Shown one piece after another: positions 7,776 through 34,761 of a DNA stretch of 62,301 nucleotides. Origin of the DNA: Eubacterium sp. Its GTDB lineage: Bacteria > Bacillota > Clostridia > Lachnospirales > Lachnospiraceae. The stretch spans positions 1-62,301 of the forward strand of contig JAFWIO010000038.1 in the NCBI GenBank assembly GCA_017514785.1. The letters run 5' to 3'. Made by a program: the position numbers and the translations under genes. The notes beneath the pieces were generated by a model, which saw only the letters and a list, made by a program, of their open reading frames with translations, had not been told where the DNA came from and searched no databases. Within the stretch, counting starts at the first letter, position 1, and the number at the start of each line of letters is the position of its first letter.

Positions 7776-8135
7776 GTGAGAAGAAATAGAAATGTGACAA
7801 TTGTTATCGTGACAACAGCAATAATTGTTTTGATAAGCATTTTTGCTGTTTTTTTAGTTGTAGATAACGATTCAAAGAAACAGAATAAAAATGCGGAGAC
7901 TTCTTTGACGCAGGCGAGCGACAAAGAGGAAGGTAAAGACGTCAGCAAATCCAGTAAAGCGGATCAGAAGATTACAGTGGAGGTGGACGTCCATAAAAAA
8001 CCGTCCGCACAAAAGAAGAAAGATAAAAAATCTAAATCTAAAAAAAGCAACAAGAAGAGCAATTCTGGCAAAGCGAAGCAGAGACAGAATGACAATTCCT
8101 ACGAGGGACTACCAATTGATTGGTTTGACGAATAA
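7776..8135 (+). CDS. Membrane-anchored lysine-rich small protein
   Basis: The 119-residue product has one N-terminal transmembrane helix (about residues 7-28) followed by a highly charged, Lys/Ser/Asn-rich extracellular tail with runs of KKxKK. I do not recognise a family; the tail may bind cell-wall polymers by charge, an inference only. The start is uncertain. The in-frame GTG at 7776 falls inside AAGGTGAG, which itself resembles a ribosome binding site for the in-frame GTG at 7794 (113 residues). It probably heads an operon with the two secreted genes downstream (gaps of 15 and 8 bases). Confidence 0.6.
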   Translation: MRRNRNVTIVIVTTAIIVLISIFAVFLVVDNDSKKQNKNAETSLTQASDKEEGKDVSKSSKADQKITVEVDVHKKPSAQKKKDKKSKSKKSNKKSNSGKAKQRQNDNSYEGLPIDWFDE

Positions 8136-8150
8136 AAGGGGACGATTCAT

Positions 8151-8666
8151 ATGAAAAGAAAAATTATAACAATTGCAATGGCGATGGTTCTTTGCCTCAG
8201 TCTAGTGTTTAGCACTGGAGCAGCCACAAAACCTAGACTGAATTATACTAAGGTTGACTTAGTGAAGGGTATGAAATTTAAGCTTAAAGTCAAAGGCAAA
8301 AAAATCAAAAAGAAAAAATTCAAGTCAACAAATAAAAAAGTGGCAACTGTAAGTAAAAAAGGTGTTGTTACGGCTGTGAATGTTGGAATTTGTAAAATAA
8401 AGGTTGTAGTTAAACTTAAAAATAAAAAAGTTAAGAAACTCACATGCAAGGTTAGAGTTCTTAGAAAAAAGATTCAGTATAAAGTGGAGCCGACAAAGGC
8501 CCAAAGTGAAATTACAAAACCGGCGGAGACTACCATAGAGGTGCCAACCAGACGCGACCCAGAAGACATAACAATACAGGTGCCAACTAGGACGCCAAGG
8601 GAAACAACCACACCGGTAGAAACTACAGAGAAACCAACACATAACTTACCAGATATTCAAATATAG
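8151..8666 (+). CDS. Secreted protein with a Big2-like Ig domain and Thr/Pro-rich tail
   Basis: The protein has 171 residues. A signal peptide is clear (basic start, hydrophobic core to about residue 22, then GAA). Residues about 27-105 resemble a bacterial Ig-like group 2 (Big2) domain, with SKKGVVTAVNVGICKIKV matching the usual SxxGxVTAxxxGxxxI pattern. The domain is unusually lysine-rich. Residues 110-171 are Thr/Pro/Glu-rich with a near-repeat (EVPTRRDP and QVPTRTPR), a typical extracellular linker. No LPXTG anchor follows. Lying between a membrane-anchored protein and a large beta-helix protein, it is probably part of one cell-surface unit. Confidence 0.72.
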   Translation: MKRKIITIAMAMVLCLSLVFSTGAATKPRLNYTKVDLVKGMKFKLKVKGKKIKKKKFKSTNKKVATVSKKGVVTAVNVGICKIKVVVKLKNKKVKKLTCKVRVLRKKIQYKVEPTKAQSEITKPAETTIEVPTRRDPEDITIQVPTRTPRETTTPVETTEKPTHNLPDIQI

Positions 8667-8674
8667 AGGAGCTT

Positions 8675-11329
8675 ATGATGAGGAAAGTATTTAAGAAAAC
8701 TTTAGTAATAATATTAAGTGCAGCAATGGCACTTTCATTTTCAGTGCCAGGAAATGTAAAAGCTGATACATATGATCAGACATTCGATATTTACACTTCC
8801 GCAGATTTAACTGCAGCTAAAGATGTTATAAACAATGCAGATAGCGGCAATTTTAAAATTAATGTAAAGGCAGATTTTACAAGCGGAATGGATACTTTCG
8901 AATTTACAAAAAACAAAGTAACAATCGATGGCGAAAATCATTCCATTAAATCCTGTGTAACTGGTGGAGCAGTAGCGGCGTGGAACGATGGAACGGAAGT
9001 ATCTGTTTACAATGCTATTTTTGAAGGCGTAACCACAAATGATAATCCTGGTGTTTTCTATGCTATGAAAGAAGGAACAATCATTATGAACGATGGGGTT
9101 ATTATTAGAAATAACGAAGGAAACAACTATATGGGAGGTGGTGTTACTGTTGCAAACGGTAAGTTTGTTATGAATGGTGGCACTATTGAAAATTGTGGTG
9201 TAAAAGATGGTTCTAACTGTTTTGGTGGTGGAGTAGCTGTTTTTAACGGTTCTATTTTCATTATGAATGGTGGAACAATTAAAGACTGTTATGTTACAAA
9301 TACATCTAGTGCACAATTTTATGCTCCTTACACAGCTGGCGGAGGAGTATGTGTATCGCTCTTCTCATCATTTGTGTTTAATGGTGGAACAATAGAGGAC
9401 TGTTATGCCCAAGGCGGTGGAGCTGTTGGCGGCGGAGTTGCTATACAAGCACATTTAGAAGATTACTATGAGTATGGCGGACAAGGAAATGTTAGTAGTA
9501 ACTTTGAAATGAATGGTGGAACTATCAAAGATTGTTCAGCCACATCAGTAGGCGGTGGAGTATACGCAGGTGGTTACTATATTCGACCAGTTCCAGCGGG
9601 TACTGTTGTGCAGACAGTTATTCCTGAGGGACATACTCGAGGTATATATATGAATGGCGGAACTATAACAGGCAATGATGCTTCAGGCCAATACGGTGGT
9701 GGCGGAATATGCTTGTTCTGGGTTAAGCCAACAGTGACAATTCAAAATACAACTATTTCAAACAATAGCGCAGTAATGGGCGGCGGAGTTTTTGTATTTG
9801 ACAACTACACTGCCGCAACCATTAATGGATGTACTATAACAGGCAATAGTTCCACAAATGTGGGTGGTGGAGTTTGCGTGATGGATGTAGGCAGCAGTTC
9901 AGGTACTACTCTAAGTAACTGTACTATTACAGGCAATACTTCCGAAGAGATAGGCGCAGGCGTGTTCTATAATAACGAGTCACCTCTCAAGATAAGCGGA
10001 GCTAATATTATCCAGAACAATACATACAATGGAGTAACAAACAACCTAAATATTTATATGGCAGATGCTCCAGTTCAAGTTATTGGTTCACTGGCTGGTT
10101 CTAAAATAGGTCTATCAGATCCTACATTATGGGATGACGGCTTGGATGATGACGACCCAGCAGCAGTATCTACAGATTATTTGACGAGCGGATACAAGGC
10201 GAATAATCCGGGAGTAAATCCTAGTGAATATTTTACAAGCGATCACGATACATGGGAACCAGACTTCAGTGATGTAGACACTAATGAAGTTAGACTAGTT
10301 AGAAAAAGTAATGAGAGCGAGATTAAAGGTGGTAACATTATCATCGATGGTTTGGTAGGCGTAACTTTGTGGGCGAAGTTAGATGCTACTTCAGAAGCAG
10401 AGAGAGCAGCCTACTCTATGAAATTTACATCAGGAAGTGATGTACAGACAGCTTCATACGATGCAAAGAAGAAAACTACGAAAGACGGCGTAGATTACTA
10501 CGGCTTTACATATTATGTAGAGACTACACAGATGGCTGACAATATCAATGGAGAATTGTTGCAAAATGGTTCATCTATAGGAGTGGAAGATGATTACTCA
10601 GTTCAAGAATATGCTGAGAATATGATTCCAAAACCTACTACAGATCAGTATTTGATAAATATGCTTAAACCATTCTTAAACTATGGTGCATTTTCACAGT
10701 TATACTTTGACTACAAAACAGGAACGCTTCCAAATGTAAATTATGATATGTCAGATGAAATTAACAGCACATCAATAGACTCAAAGTATCAGTACACTAT
10801 AGAAGATGATTCTTTAAGCGGAATTGATGTTCAAAAGAGTTTATCACTCGGCATCGACAAAGGAGTTAATATTACATTTAAGTTTATTGCAGACGCTAGT
10901 GTAAATATGAATGAGTACAAAGCGGTACTATCAAGTGATGCTAGCGATCCATTCTTTGTAGATGACGATGGAAATCCATATACTACGGAAGTTATGCCAT
11001 TTACACACTTCCCTGGAGACAGCGAGCATTTATACACAATCAACTTGTATAATGTGCCTGCTAGCAGATATGATGACTCATTGACTTTGACGGTGACAAA
11101 AGAGGGAAATCCTTCCCAGAAATACCAGATTAAGTTTAGTGTATTTAGTTATGCATATGCCGTAACTAACGATGAGGCTACATATGTGGATCCAGGAAAG
11201 ATTAGCCCAGAGAAGATGGCTCAGCTAAAGAGTCTTTTGAAGGCTATGTATGTATTTAATGAACAGGCTGAAGCATACGTAAAACAGTATCCTGAAAAAG
11301 TATTTAGATACAAAGTAAAGAACTTCTAA
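8675..11329 (+). CDS. Large secreted right-handed beta-helix surface protein
   Basis: This 884-residue protein starts with a signal peptide (cleavage near residue 31, after VKA). Residues about 100-480 carry imperfect repeats of the MNGGTI / GGGV type, the pattern of a parallel beta-helix as in Pmp-like and adhesin-like proteins. Each coil pairs a glycine turn with an NGGTI strand. The C-terminal 380 residues are non-repetitive, acidic, and not recognised. There is no LPXTG motif, S-layer domain or membrane anchor, so attachment must be indirect. The double ATG follows GAGGAG; the second codon is an equally good start. It is probably the last large gene of the operon from 7776. An adhesin or polysaccharide-active role is possible. 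Confidence 0.78.
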   Translation: MMRKVFKKTLVIILSAAMALSFSVPGNVKADTYDQTFDIYTSADLTAAKDVINNADSGNFKINVKADFTSGMDTFEFTKNKVTIDGENHSIKSCVTGGAVAAWNDGTEVSVYNAIFEGVTTNDNPGVFYAMKEGTIIMNDGVIIRNNEGNNYMGGGVTVANGKFVMNGGTIENCGVKDGSNCFGGGVAVFNGSIFIMNGGTIKDCYVTNTSSAQFYAPYTAGGGVCVSLFSSFVFNGGTIEDCYAQGGGAVGGGVAIQAHLEDYYEYGGQGNVSSNFEMNGGTIKDCSATSVGGGVYAGGYYIRPVPAGTVVQTVIPEGHTRGIYMNGGTITGNDASGQYGGGGICLFWVKPTVTIQNTTISNNSAVMGGGVFVFDNYTAATINGCTITGNSSTNVGGGVCVMDVGSSSGTTLSNCTITGNTSEEIGAGVFYNNESPLKISGANIIQNNTYNGVTNNLNIYMADAPVQVIGSLAGSKIGLSDPTLWDDGLDDDDPAAVSTDYLTSGYKANNPGVNPSEYFTSDHDTWEPDFSDVDTNEVRLVRKSNESEIKGGNIIIDGLVGVTLWAKLDATSEAERAAYSMKFTSGSDVQTASYDAKKKTTKDGVDYYGFTYYVETTQMADNINGELLQNGSSIGVEDDYSVQEYAENMIPKPTTDQYLINMLKPFLNYGAFSQLYFDYKTGTLPNVNYDMSDEINSTSIDSKYQYTIEDDSLSGIDVQKSLSLGIDKGVNITFKFIADASVNMNEYKAVLSSDASDPFFVDDDGNPYTTEVMPFTHFPGDSEHLYTINLYNVPASRYDDSLTLTVTKEGNPSQKYQIKFSVFSYAYAVTNDEATYVDPGKISPEKMAQLKSLLKAMYVFNEQAEAYVKQYPEKVFRYKVKNF

Positions 11330-11400
11330 TTAATACTTGATTTTGACTAGTTAGTTGTGTACTATATTTGAATGTGTGAGGGAAGTAATTGAGGATTATT

Positions 11401-11538
11401 ATGAAAAAGAACTATAAAAAACCTATTTTTGAGACAGTAGAATTTAACAAATGCGACGTCATTACCACTAGTGGCATAGATTTATGGAACGGTGGTTCTG
11501 GCGAAGGTGTTGATACTGATATCGATTGGAAAGATTGA
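11401..11538 (+). CDS. Short peptide gene (45 aa) with a DVITTSG motif
   Basis: A complete 45-codon frame runs from ATG 11401 to TGA 11538, with AGG six bases before the ATG and a strong terminator 30 bases after the stop. The peptide has a basic/aromatic N-terminal half (MKKNYKKPIFETVEF), one Cys, the motif CDVITTSGIDLW, and a Gly/Asp-rich acidic C-terminus. There is no signal peptide. Short proteins of the form KxYxxPxxExxxFxxxDVITTSG are, from memory, recurrent in Clostridia without a known role. A precursor peptide, a secreted signal or a surface-protein partner are all possible. No modification enzyme is adjacent. Confidence 0.6.
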   Translation: MKKNYKKPIFETVEFNKCDVITTSGIDLWNGGSGEGVDTDIDWKD

Positions 11539-11567
11539 TAAATCAGTTGTTTTTGTAGTGTTTATTT

Positions 11568-11606
11568 ATAGCCTCATTTGCTCTTGCAAATGGGGCTATT
11601 TTTGTT
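11568..11606 (+). terminator. Strong terminator after the short peptide gene
   Basis: A 14-bp stem (11568-11581 with 11586-11599, one G-U pair) with a 4-base loop and a T-rich tail. It closes the transcript containing the 45-codon gene. Confidence 0.9.
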
Positions 11607-11661
11607 TTCAACGGGGGAAAAATGAAATGCGATAGAAATATTAAGGTTTTTGTTGCGTGAG

Positions 11662-11690
11662 TTACTATTTATAGTAAATAATGCTATAAT
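11662..11690 (+). promoter_or_regulatory. Promoter with an embedded palindromic operator
   Basis: TATAAT lies at 11685-11690. Where the -35 would sit (11662-11667) begins the perfect palindrome TTACTAT-TT-ATAGTAA (11662-11677). A repressor bound there would cover the -35 and spacer; an activator is also possible because the -35 is poor. The binding protein is not identified. Confidence 0.6.
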
Positions 11691-11725
11691 ATAAACGTAA
11701 AAATGCGATGAAAGGAGATCGATCT

Positions 11726-13072
11726 ATGAAAAAGGTTTTAGGAATAGTTTTAACCTTAGCATTGATTGTCAGCAGTTTTTCTGTTGCTATTTTTGGTGCC
11801 AATAATGACGGCATGTACGAAGATGACGATAATAATGGTAGTTCGATAGCTTTTTATCTCACAGATTCGAATGGAAATAATATTAATAGTACTACAGGCA
11901 CATACACACTAGGACAAGATTTCTATTTCAAAATTAATGTGTATGCCACTTCAGAAATAAAAAACAATAGTCTGGCTAGAAAAATAAACATAATGGATGA
12001 CTATGGAGAGTATGACAACAATGCTACTAACTTAATGTATAAAGAAAGTGGCCAAACTAGTTGGAGTAATGATGATTACTATCAATCTCAGAATTGTTAT
12101 AAATTTAGAGGAACTAAGGAAGATACGTATCCTTTGAAGCAGTACACTTCATTAGGTAATCATACAACATACTTTAAAGTGAAGTTTAATACAGCAGGAA
12201 AACATATAATCGAATACTCGGCTACATGTTTCGAAAAGAATTACAGACTAATTTCTAGGAAGTATATTGATATTAGTAATAATGGAACATTTAAAATTAG
12301 TTCTAAGGAAGAGCAGGAACAGACTACTGAAAAACCTACATATACAGTATATATAGATGGAGTTCCTTTTAAGTCAGATATTAAAGAAGGCGGCAAATGT
12401 GATTTGCCAGGATCTGGACGAGGATTCTATGATAGAAACACTCATGATATGTTTGTATCACACTTCCAATTAAGCAATATTCAAAGAAACTACAACCTCT
12501 ACTCGGTGGATCAAGTTAATGTTTCATGTGCATCGGGCGCTAATATTAGGGCAGATGGTAAACACGGAATTAGATTTGGAAGTATGGTCAATGTAAAAAA
12601 TAAAAACGGAACAGACATTACTTCAGAGGTTCTAAAGAACGGTGGAATTCAAATTGGAACGACTATAACTATGTACGATTTTTACCTTTCTATCTTTGAT
12701 GAGAACCTTAACAAGGTGGATGTAGATAGAGAAGATCCAGATTGCATATATCACTTTGACGTTCTCAATCCTATGGATGACTGGCCTACAAATGCAACTA
12801 CTGGTTTGCCAAGATATGGCTTATGCTATGCGGGAGTCGTCAATGTTAGACAGTCTAATCTTACGAGACAGTTCATTGCTTCAGCATATGCAAAGATTGA
12901 ATATCAGTACTATAACAATACAACTATTGATGAGTATGTGAACGCAGAGAATCAATTAGATACAGTTCGTTCAATCTGCGATGTTGCTCGTAGAATGAAG
13001 GCAGCAGGCTATCCAGGTTGTACGCCAGCGCAAATAGAGGTACTAGAGTATTATTGCTCTATACCTGATTAA
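11726..13072 (+). CDS. Secreted protein of unknown function
   Basis: The product has 448 residues from ATG 11726, chosen because AAAGGAG (11711-11717) is correctly spaced for it; the upstream in-frame ATG at 11708 overlaps that site. A signal peptide is present (MKKVLGIVLTLALIV, cleavage near residue 25). The mature part is Asn/Asp/Tyr/Ser-rich with no recognised domain. Residues about 25-190 and 215-400 look like two beta-rich modules joined by a Glu/Gln/Thr-rich linker. The C-terminal 50 residues look helical and contain two Cys. The gene has its own palindrome-bearing promoter. No anchor motif is present. Confidence 0.68.
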   Translation: MKKVLGIVLTLALIVSSFSVAIFGANNDGMYEDDDNNGSSIAFYLTDSNGNNINSTTGTYTLGQDFYFKINVYATSEIKNNSLARKINIMDDYGEYDNNATNLMYKESGQTSWSNDDYYQSQNCYKFRGTKEDTYPLKQYTSLGNHTTYFKVKFNTAGKHIIEYSATCFEKNYRLISRKYIDISNNGTFKISSKEEQEQTTEKPTYTVYIDGVPFKSDIKEGGKCDLPGSGRGFYDRNTHDMFVSHFQLSNIQRNYNLYSVDQVNVSCASGANIRADGKHGIRFGSMVNVKNKNGTDITSEVLKNGGIQIGTTITMYDFYLSIFDENLNKVDVDREDPDCIYHFDVLNPMDDWPTNATTGLPRYGLCYAGVVNVRQSNLTRQFIASAYAKIEYQYYNNTTIDEYVNAENQLDTVRSICDVARRMKAAGYPGCTPAQIEVLEYYCSIPD

Positions 13073-20673: not shown

Positions 20674-21981
20674 ATGGCTAAAGAGAAGAATAAATGGCAA
20701 AAATTAAAGAGTGTTAGAAGAAGAAAAAGAGTTCTTATAACTTTCGAAGCAATATTTGCAGCAATCGTTATTGCGATTGGTGTAATTTGGTTCGTGCCAC
20801 CAGTAAAGAGCGCATTCTTAAAAGGATTTTCTCAGACGTTTATTGGTAGAGAGATATTGAAGTGGTTCGGAAGTGAAGCCTTCGAAAAAGGAGTTTTCGA
20901 TGACGAATTTGATAAGAGTAAACTTATCAAGAACAATTTGAAGTATAAGTATTCAGGTGAGTACATGAACTTTGTATTGTTTGGCGTGGACTCTAGAAAT
21001 AAGGAAGTTGATACTTCTAACAGTGACTCAATTTTGATTGTAAGTATTCACAACACAACTGGAAAGGTTAAGATGGTTTCAGTTTATCGTGATACTATGT
21101 TGGGTATTTATAATAAGGATGGTCAGTTTAAGGAATACTTTAAGGTTAACTCTGCGTTCTCAAATGGTGGAGCAGAGGCTGCCATTAATACTCTAAACAA
21201 AAACTTGGATTTGGATTTGACGGACTACGTCACAGTGAACTTTGGCGGAGTTGCGAGAATTATAGATACACTTGGTGGAATTAAGGTTAATCTAACTAAG
21301 GGCGAGAAGCAGCAGATTAATTATCATATGAAGAGTACAGTTAGTTCCACAGGAAAACGCGGCAAAAAAGTTAAGAAGGCAGGAAAGAATATTAAGCTAA
21401 ACGGTGTTCAGGCAGCAACATACTGCAGAATCCGTAAGGCTACATTTATAGATCCAGAAACTGGAGAGAGAATCAGTAACGACTTTGGTCGTGCAGCTAG
21501 ACAGCGTAGTGTTATTAAGAAGCTGGTTGAGTCTGCGAAGAAAGCCGGAGTTGGACAACTAGAGGATATGGTAGATGAGGTTCTAAATTCTGATAGCAAG
21601 AAAGACAGAATTATTTCTACAAGTTTTGATTTCGACTCTATTGTTAACTTGATTCCAGTGCTATTTGATTTTGAACTAAACGGAAGTGAAGGTTTCCCTT
21701 CAAAACTTCAGACTGGTACATACAACGGAGCAAGTTATGTAGTACCTCAGACTTTGGCTACTAACGTTAAAAAACTTCACAAGTATTTGTATGGCGAAAA
21801 GAATTATCAGCCTACCGCTACTGTAAATGATGCTAGTTTCAGTATTACAAGTAGAACCGGAGTGAATGAGACTTCTGATGGATTTGATCCAACAAAGATT
21901 GAGGGAGTTGAAAAAGTTAGCAAGAGTGATTCAGATGATTTTGATTATGATGATCACTGGAAGAGCCCATACTTTAGATAA
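20674..21981 (+). CDS. LCP (LytR-CpsA-Psr) family cell-wall polymer ligase
   Basis: LCP enzymes transfer lipid-linked teichoic acids or capsular glycans onto peptidoglycan on the outside of the cell. The 435-residue protein has a basic N-terminus, one transmembrane helix (about 24-43) and an LCP domain at about 100-320. The domain shows FGVDSRNKE, DSILIVSI, VSVYRDTM, VNFGGVARIIDTLGG and YCRIRK, with Arg and Asp residues in the expected pyrophosphate and metal positions. The C-terminal 50 residues are Ser/Asp-rich. The gene starts two bases after galE. Its stop codon lies inside the left arm of the nested inverted repeat downstream. Confidence 0.92.
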   Translation: MAKEKNKWQKLKSVRRRKRVLITFEAIFAAIVIAIGVIWFVPPVKSAFLKGFSQTFIGREILKWFGSEAFEKGVFDDEFDKSKLIKNNLKYKYSGEYMNFVLFGVDSRNKEVDTSNSDSILIVSIHNTTGKVKMVSVYRDTMLGIYNKDGQFKEYFKVNSAFSNGGAEAAINTLNKNLDLDLTDYVTVNFGGVARIIDTLGGIKVNLTKGEKQQINYHMKSTVSSTGKRGKKVKKAGKNIKLNGVQAATYCRIRKATFIDPETGERISNDFGRAARQRSVIKKLVESAKKAGVGQLEDMVDEVLNSDSKKDRIISTSFDFDSIVNLIPVLFDFELNGSEGFPSKLQTGTYNGASYVVPQTLATNVKKLHKYLYGEKNYQPTATVNDASFSITSRTGVNETSDGFDPTKIEGVEKVSKSDSDDFDYDDHWKSPYFR

Positions 21982-34480: not shown

Positions 34481-34761
34481 CAAATGGCGAAGACAAAGAG
34501 AAGTAGCCGTACTTATCGCTATGAGAGAGTGGGTGATGGTGAGATACCCATAGAATGAATTACGGTGAATAACACTTTCGAGCTGCAAACTGAAAACTTA
34601 GGTTAGTAGGTGCGCCGTAGCCAGTCGTTAATGGCAGGAAAATCAAATGCGATTTACCGATGAGGGGTTGTTTAAAACAACAATTCAGGTGGTACCGCGG
34701 GCAAAGTTTATGAATATAAAAGTCCGTCCTGAAAGCTTTGACTTTTGGGGTGGGCTTTTTC
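34481..34761 (+). ncRNA. T-box riboswitch with an Asn (AAC) specifier, controlling aspS
   Basis: The T-box core AGGTGGTACCGCGG is at 34687-34700. Stem I has AGTA (34502-34505) below the helix GCCGTA/TACGGT (34506-34511, 34561-34566). Opposite is GAA (34567-34569), one base, then AAC (34571-34573) and A, flanked by AAAG/CTTT pairing. This is the GAA-N-codon-A layout of known specifier loops, as in glyQS. AAC reads tRNA-Asn. An 18-bp terminator (34718-34735 with 34742-34759, all paired including G-U) with a T-tail competes with the antiterminator. Uncharged tRNA-Asn should therefore raise aspS expression. Confidence 0.93.

Follow-up and report, generated by a model that had tools for sequence, protein, structure and literature searches.

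Linear polyphosphorylated peptides (LPPs) are RiPPs of the gene set lppA-K-B-S-D-N, described by Popov et al. in May 2026 (PMC13381572). According to that article, the LPP enzyme set consists of an SpI-like peptidase, a discrete RRE, an HprK-like kinase, an NTP transferase, and an MsbA-like transporter. Polyphosphorylation of core Ser3 is kinase-dependent, and the leader, with the consensus YxxPxVLxHQxIxFETxxS, is removed by a SipW-like peptidase with the assistance of the RRE, in which LppB D70 fixes the leader Tyr (N33 is also named). The biological role of LPPs is given there as unknown, and the main text of PMC13381572 contains no mention of Clostridi-, orphan, surface protein, secreted protein, exported, or in trans. 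Paeninodin-type and other Bacillota lasso peptides also resemble the system considered below, having a [YW]xxP leader, an HprK-type kinase, a nucleotidyltransferase, and a PqqD/RRE protein (PMC7533575).

The gene studied here lies at 11401-11538 of the window, i.e., the whole 62,301-nucleotide stretch of Eubacterium sp. DNA that was analysed. It resembles LPPs in its YxxP leader, in a Ser located shortly past the leader border, in the absence of a detected lasso B2 family, and in the same five enzyme types being encoded by one operon of its own genome. With respect to the LPP consensus, the family keeps YxxP and the Ser, has no HQ, and carries DxIxxS in place of FETxxS, with a Y-to-Ser distance of 19 rather than the 18 of LPPs. 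In contrast to LPPs, there are many precursors per genome, often outside the enzyme cluster (the window copy is on another contig), and they are paired with exported proteins and often have an aromatic tail. The gene probably encodes an LPP-type RiPP precursor, the core of which would be modified, cleaved, exported, and act together with an adjacently encoded 884-aa protein.

Peptide gene and its family

The following features belong to the peptide gene itself (all on the + strand).

11391..11394, +, probable ribosome-binding site GAGG upstream of the peptide ATG
11401..11538, +, gene of the 45-aa LPP-like precursor, among 7 own-genome profile matches
11413..11424, +, codons of Y5xxP8 near the N-terminus, RRE-binding type motif (role from PMC13381572)
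11455..11472, +, codons of D19-V-I-T-T-S24, [DEN]x[IVMLC]xxS motif
11521..11535, +, acidic/aromatic C-terminal tail IDWKD at the end of the gene
11568..11609, +, intrinsic terminator directly 3' of the gene, with a 14-pair stem and T-run at 11568-11599

The frame 11401-11538, its TGA stop counted in, gives the 45-residue product MKKNYKKPIFETVEFNKCDVITTSGIDLWNGGSGEGVDTDIDWKD. The RNA fold of 11530-11610 has a z of -4.5, equalled by none of 200 shuffles. Short frame, start site, terminator, and neighbours are all as a sequence-only reading of this DNA had described them.

A single-sequence search found the peptide at 4 places in its own genome (window copy counted) and in other genomes of the genus down to E 2e-7; among 60 relatives, 25 had matches at E<=1, a part of which lay in long frames and was probably fortuitous. 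Two profiles were used, A1 with 18 genus members and the broader A2 with 32. Profile A1 is positive in 24 of 299 genomes of the taxonomic family at E<=0.01, with 7 matches in the own genome. Profile A2 is positive in 41 of 76 chosen genomes, one of which (G027) was judged false, its match being a 432-aa frame covering profile positions 14-43, and in 45 of 341 class genomes at E<=0.001, the own genome among them. The most precursor matches per genome in the class-wide A2 search belong to G552 (21), followed by G359 and G360 (15 each).

Regarding selection, three groups of close copies have pN/pS values of 0.25, 0.13, and 0.38 (pairs inside one group are not independent), and the window peptide with its closest partner (locus L059) has the weakest value, 0.54, at a high dS of 1.43. 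The family is thus under purifying selection, with pN/pS of 0.13-0.54 in four groups. Since this is accompanied by relatives at E 2e-7 and by 0 of 20,700 shuffled short frames matching the family model at E<=0.01, the 45-codon gene is real and not a chance frame. A lack of conserved homologues or a ratio near 1, which the sequence-only reading had named as signs of its being wrong, was not what these searches returned.

None of the 32 family members matched Pfam or NCBIfam at E<=0.01, and one matched PHROGs at the same threshold (an unnamed family). As for the window peptide, the Pfam scan gave a single sub-threshold match (DUF6559, E 0.22), NCBIfam no match, the PDB sequence search nothing better than E 0.5, and the Rfam scan no match at the peptide locus. 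A literature search for motif strings returned no paper, the sole match in another search being the LPP article (PMC13381572). The earlier description of the family as widespread and uncharacterised is supported, with the refinement that a known relative exists, because enzymes encoded elsewhere in the genome match the LPP set of PMC13381572.

In the 18-member alignment M1, Y5, P8, D19, and S24 are invariant, and I21 and W43 nearly so. The N-half is conserved and the C-half variable, in agreement with the two-part look of a leader plus core noted before. Among 103 distinct family peptides, 95 have [YF]xxP near the N-terminus (Y5KKP8 in the window) and 99 have [DEN]x[IVMLC]xxS, the Y-to-S distance being 19 in 87 of the 92 with both motifs. 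The window peptide has a leader with Y5xxP8, then the nearly invariant Ser of DxIxxS, and a short, acidic core that ends in an aromatic tail. The YxxP...DxIxxS pattern resembles, as a motif, RRE-binding RiPP leaders, and we infer that S24 is a candidate phospho-acceptor, with the leader/core border about there.

Probable biosynthetic enzymes and their distribution

The own-genome operon (L169, G000:C28) is on a different contig from the window and has the gene order NTP5-HprK-PqqD-S26-ABC, which is repeated in loci L174 and L187.

C28 31-1194, NTP5, nucleotidyltransferase, LppN-like
C28 1197-1931, HprK-like kinase, LppK-like
C28 1932-2195, PqqD/RRE, LppB-like
C28 2188-2655, S26, SipW-type protease, LppS-like
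C28 2652-4364, ABC, MsbA-type exporter, LppD-like

A second own-genome set, S26-PqqD-HprK, accompanied by an anchored protein and a divergent peptide, occupies 9704-11969 of locus L299. Loci of distant family members contain genes for the HprK-like kinase, S26 protease, ABC exporter, and nucleotidyltransferase, as well as VanZ-like genes. With positions matched by spacing, the RRE residue corresponding to LppB D70, which fixes the leader Tyr in LPPs, is Asp in 40 of 47 collected RRE-like sequences, and that corresponding to N33 is Asn in 45 of 47. The PDB sequence search with the RRE returned the lasso RREs TfuB1 (E 4e-4) and TbiB1 (E 0.007). All 8 S26 sequences keep the catalytic Ser and His of LppS, and in L169 these two are separated by 39 residues, the same spacing as in LppS; at the position that spacing assigns to the acid, 7 of the 8 have Glu and 1 has Asp.

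According to the enzyme models, the 76 chosen genomes include 53 with NTP5 (51 over the cut-off), 47 with S26, and 52 with HprK. In the 23 genomes of the window's genus, a peptide match was found in 21 (some of them weak, as in G005 and G011), HprK in 22, S26 in 21, and NTP5 in all 23. Outside the genus, all 19 peptide-positive genomes have both HprK and S26, compared with 6 of the 34 negative ones (Fisher p 1.5e-9); the negatives have HprK in 11 and S26 in 7 (one weak). With G027 counted as true, the values become 19 of 20 versus 6 of 33. Nine of these 53 genomes gave sequences to the HprK or S26 models, and with these removed the result is 12 of 12 versus 4 of 32 (p 9e-8). NTP5 is present in 18 of the 19 non-genus positives; G305 has 17 peptide copies and no NTP5, and G022 has HprK and S26 with no peptide detected. 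PqqD exceeds the cut-off in 39 of 39 genomes (20 of the 23 in the genus and the 19 non-genus positives).

Another 80 genomes of the class, from which no model sequences had been taken, gave S26 in 38 of the 43 positives and in 12 of the 37 not listed as positive (p 2e-7), and at >=90 bits in 37 and 7, respectively. The 5 positives of the 43 with no S26 detected are G347, G499, G596, G622, and G623. All of these p values overstate independence, since the genomes are related. A peptide gene lies <=10 kb from S26 in 10 of 19 non-genus genomes, with about 0.7 expected at random (2 of the 17 G305 copies were counted, and the other 15 would lift the expectation by 0.11), and in 10 of 37 class genomes among the matches listed, with about 1.2 expected. 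Taken with the motifs, this co-occurrence and co-localisation make the LPP-type precursor identity well supported.

Two further observations concern the enzyme loci. The L299 enzyme set follows a gene row that looks like one for ribosomal proteins. Loci L177, L178, L181, L184, and L186 combine HprK, S26, NTP5, or ABC genes with proteins that look like radical-SAM enzymes when read from sequence and with YxxP peptides, several of which contain Cys; these loci possibly represent a related RiPP type sharing the recognition and export parts.

Exported protein neighbours

The neighbouring genes in the window are as follows.

7776..8135, +, 119-aa spacer protein anchored in the membrane, C-terminus LPIDWFDE similar to the peptide's IDWKD
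8151..8666, +, 171-aa exported Big_2-domain protein in the same gene row as the peptide
8675..11329, +, 884-aa exported repeat (beta-helix-like) protein, probable partner, ends 71 nt before the peptide gene
10343..11284, +, C-terminal domain type 2 (residues 557-870 of the 884-aa protein)
11726..13072 (from ATG), +, exported protein carrying domain type 1 at its C-terminus, beyond the peptide terminator
12476..13060, +, C-terminal domain type 1

The genes 7776-8135, 8151-8666, and 8675-11329 and the peptide gene point the same way and are separated by 15, 8, and 71 nt; with the terminator coming after the peptide, this suggests a single transcript for the four-gene row. As to the beta-helix nature earlier attributed to the 884-aa neighbour, NGGTI and GGGV repeats are indeed visible, but the Pfam scan of this protein gave no family above the cut-off.

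The fetched loci contain 109 distinct peptide genes, 105 of them with enough upstream sequence. Of these 105 copies, 81 have, at a distance of -35 to 150 nt, an upstream frame of >=250 codons, and a (crude) signal-peptide call was obtained for 69 of the 81 upstream genes versus 49 of 200 background genes, which bears out the suspected tie to surface proteins. The remaining 24 have no large gene directly upstream, and for 9 of them such a protein is found downstream. As it was the peptide that led to the selection of these loci, a reverse count starting from domain type 1 is less biased. Among 61 full domain-1 proteins in 23 genus genomes (7 of 68 rows were partial and were dropped), 44 adjoin a peptide gene, located within 200 nt downstream in 41 and upstream in 3, and for 17 none was detected. 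An incomplete look at these 17, in which a neighbouring gene was taken for the partner in several cases, turned up a YxxP frame in one (L313), next to a different gene. The 24 and 17 exceptions mean that the pairing is not obligatory.

In the fetched loci, 12 frames, representing 11 distinct genes, carry domain type 2 at their C-terminal end or close to it. One of these loci, L180, was fetched for its nucleotidyltransferase, and a peptide gene lies 206 nt behind the domain-2 gene. None of 22 domain-1 members matches Pfam at E<=0.01. Thus, two C-terminal domains without a Pfam family (for domain 2, the window protein alone was scanned) are both linked to peptide genes.

For the window, the LPP-type reading would run as follows. 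The RRE would bind Y5/P8 and pass the peptide to the kinase, which would phosphorylate S24; the protease would cut off the leader near I21-S24, and the exporter would secrete the core. The exported core would work outside the cell with the 884-aa protein, which is the least certain step and is considered most likely because the peptide gene follows the 884-aa gene and is terminated after it. Only gene order points to this joint action of the core and its exported neighbour.

The gene pairing would also suit a small chaperone or regulator that stays in the cytoplasm, serves the exported protein encoded next to it, and is not processed by the RiPP enzymes, given the tight gap to the upstream gene (median 20 nt in 69 cases) and a window peptide without a signal sequence (maximum 15-residue hydropathy mean 0.37). 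Such a role is unlikely, however, as it leaves unexplained both why the peptide genes occur together with, and close to, those of the RRE, kinase, protease, and exporter and why the peptides have an RRE-type YxxP motif and a conserved Ser.

RiPPs are often antimicrobials or signals, and a copy lies <=10 kb from the protease gene in 20 of 56 genomes among the matches listed, as might be expected of an exported LPP-type bacteriocin or pheromone that adjoins surface protein genes by mere coincidence. With 81 of 105 copies behind a large gene, the excess of signal-peptide calls over background, and 44 of 61 domain-1 proteins adjoining a peptide, we regard this as quite improbable. A lasso peptide precursor of the paeninodin group, despite the leader, the Thr before a Ser-Gly, and the HprK and nucleotidyltransferase known from paeninodin-type clusters (PMC7533575), is very improbable: the protease here is SipW-like, none of 39 genomes has the B2 peptidase family PF13471 over the cut-off (three have weak matches), a core GIDLWNGGSG has G, G, and S at ring positions 7-9 and hence no acidic ring residue, compared with Gly1 and D8 or D9 as the lasso core criterion (PMC7533575), and most Bacillota lasso leaders have WxxP (PMC13381572).

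Shared tails and possible role

Under the LPP-type reading, the peptide genes being mostly beside genes for large exported proteins gives a first hint of the purpose of the peptides. Tails common to peptides and other proteins were also found. In locus L059, which is arranged like the window, the membrane-anchored protein and the peptide both end in IDWFDD; in L137, the tail YELPFIP is common to an anchored or exported protein and a peptide of the same genome; and GDGDDIGDL ends both a 191-aa exported protein (L052, 16904-17479) and a peptide of the same genome (L171/L299, at 11829-11969 of L299). These three pairs score 39-56, and 0 of 5,237 cross-genome pairs reach 34. The window match, IDWFDE of the 119-aa protein versus IDWKD of the peptide, is weaker. 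General tail sharing was rejected, as below a score of about 30 within-genome matches are little commoner than those between genomes.

More speculatively, LPP-type cores may be dedicated companions of secreted proteins, with one RiPP line in the cell phosphorylating and exporting many different cores, each of which would dock at the cell surface on the C-terminal domain of its partner, and with small membrane-anchored proteins of the same tail competing for or sharing the site. We consider this general scheme doubtful; if true, RiPP chemistry would serve surface-protein assembly instead of antibiosis. The question of the LPP role is now testable, with the partner protein as the place to look, since a single genome can contain as many as 21 precursor matches, which are scattered, are for the most part paired with exported proteins, and are served by a small number of enzyme sets, sometimes just one. 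This also suggests that searches based only on enzyme clusters miss many precursors. In addition, the peptide family brings in the two C-terminal domains of secreted proteins described above.

Two minor observations come from other parts of the window. A 435-aa protein (20674-21981, +) ends in DFDYDDHWKSPYFR, resembling the tail DPDPGDHWGTEFF of an own-genome peptide on contig C22, with a score of 36, above every cross-genome pair; outside the peptide family, four tail pairs beat all cross-genome pairs (56, 49, 39, and 36). A T-box leader (RF00230, 112.7 bits) is located at 34481-34734 on the + strand.
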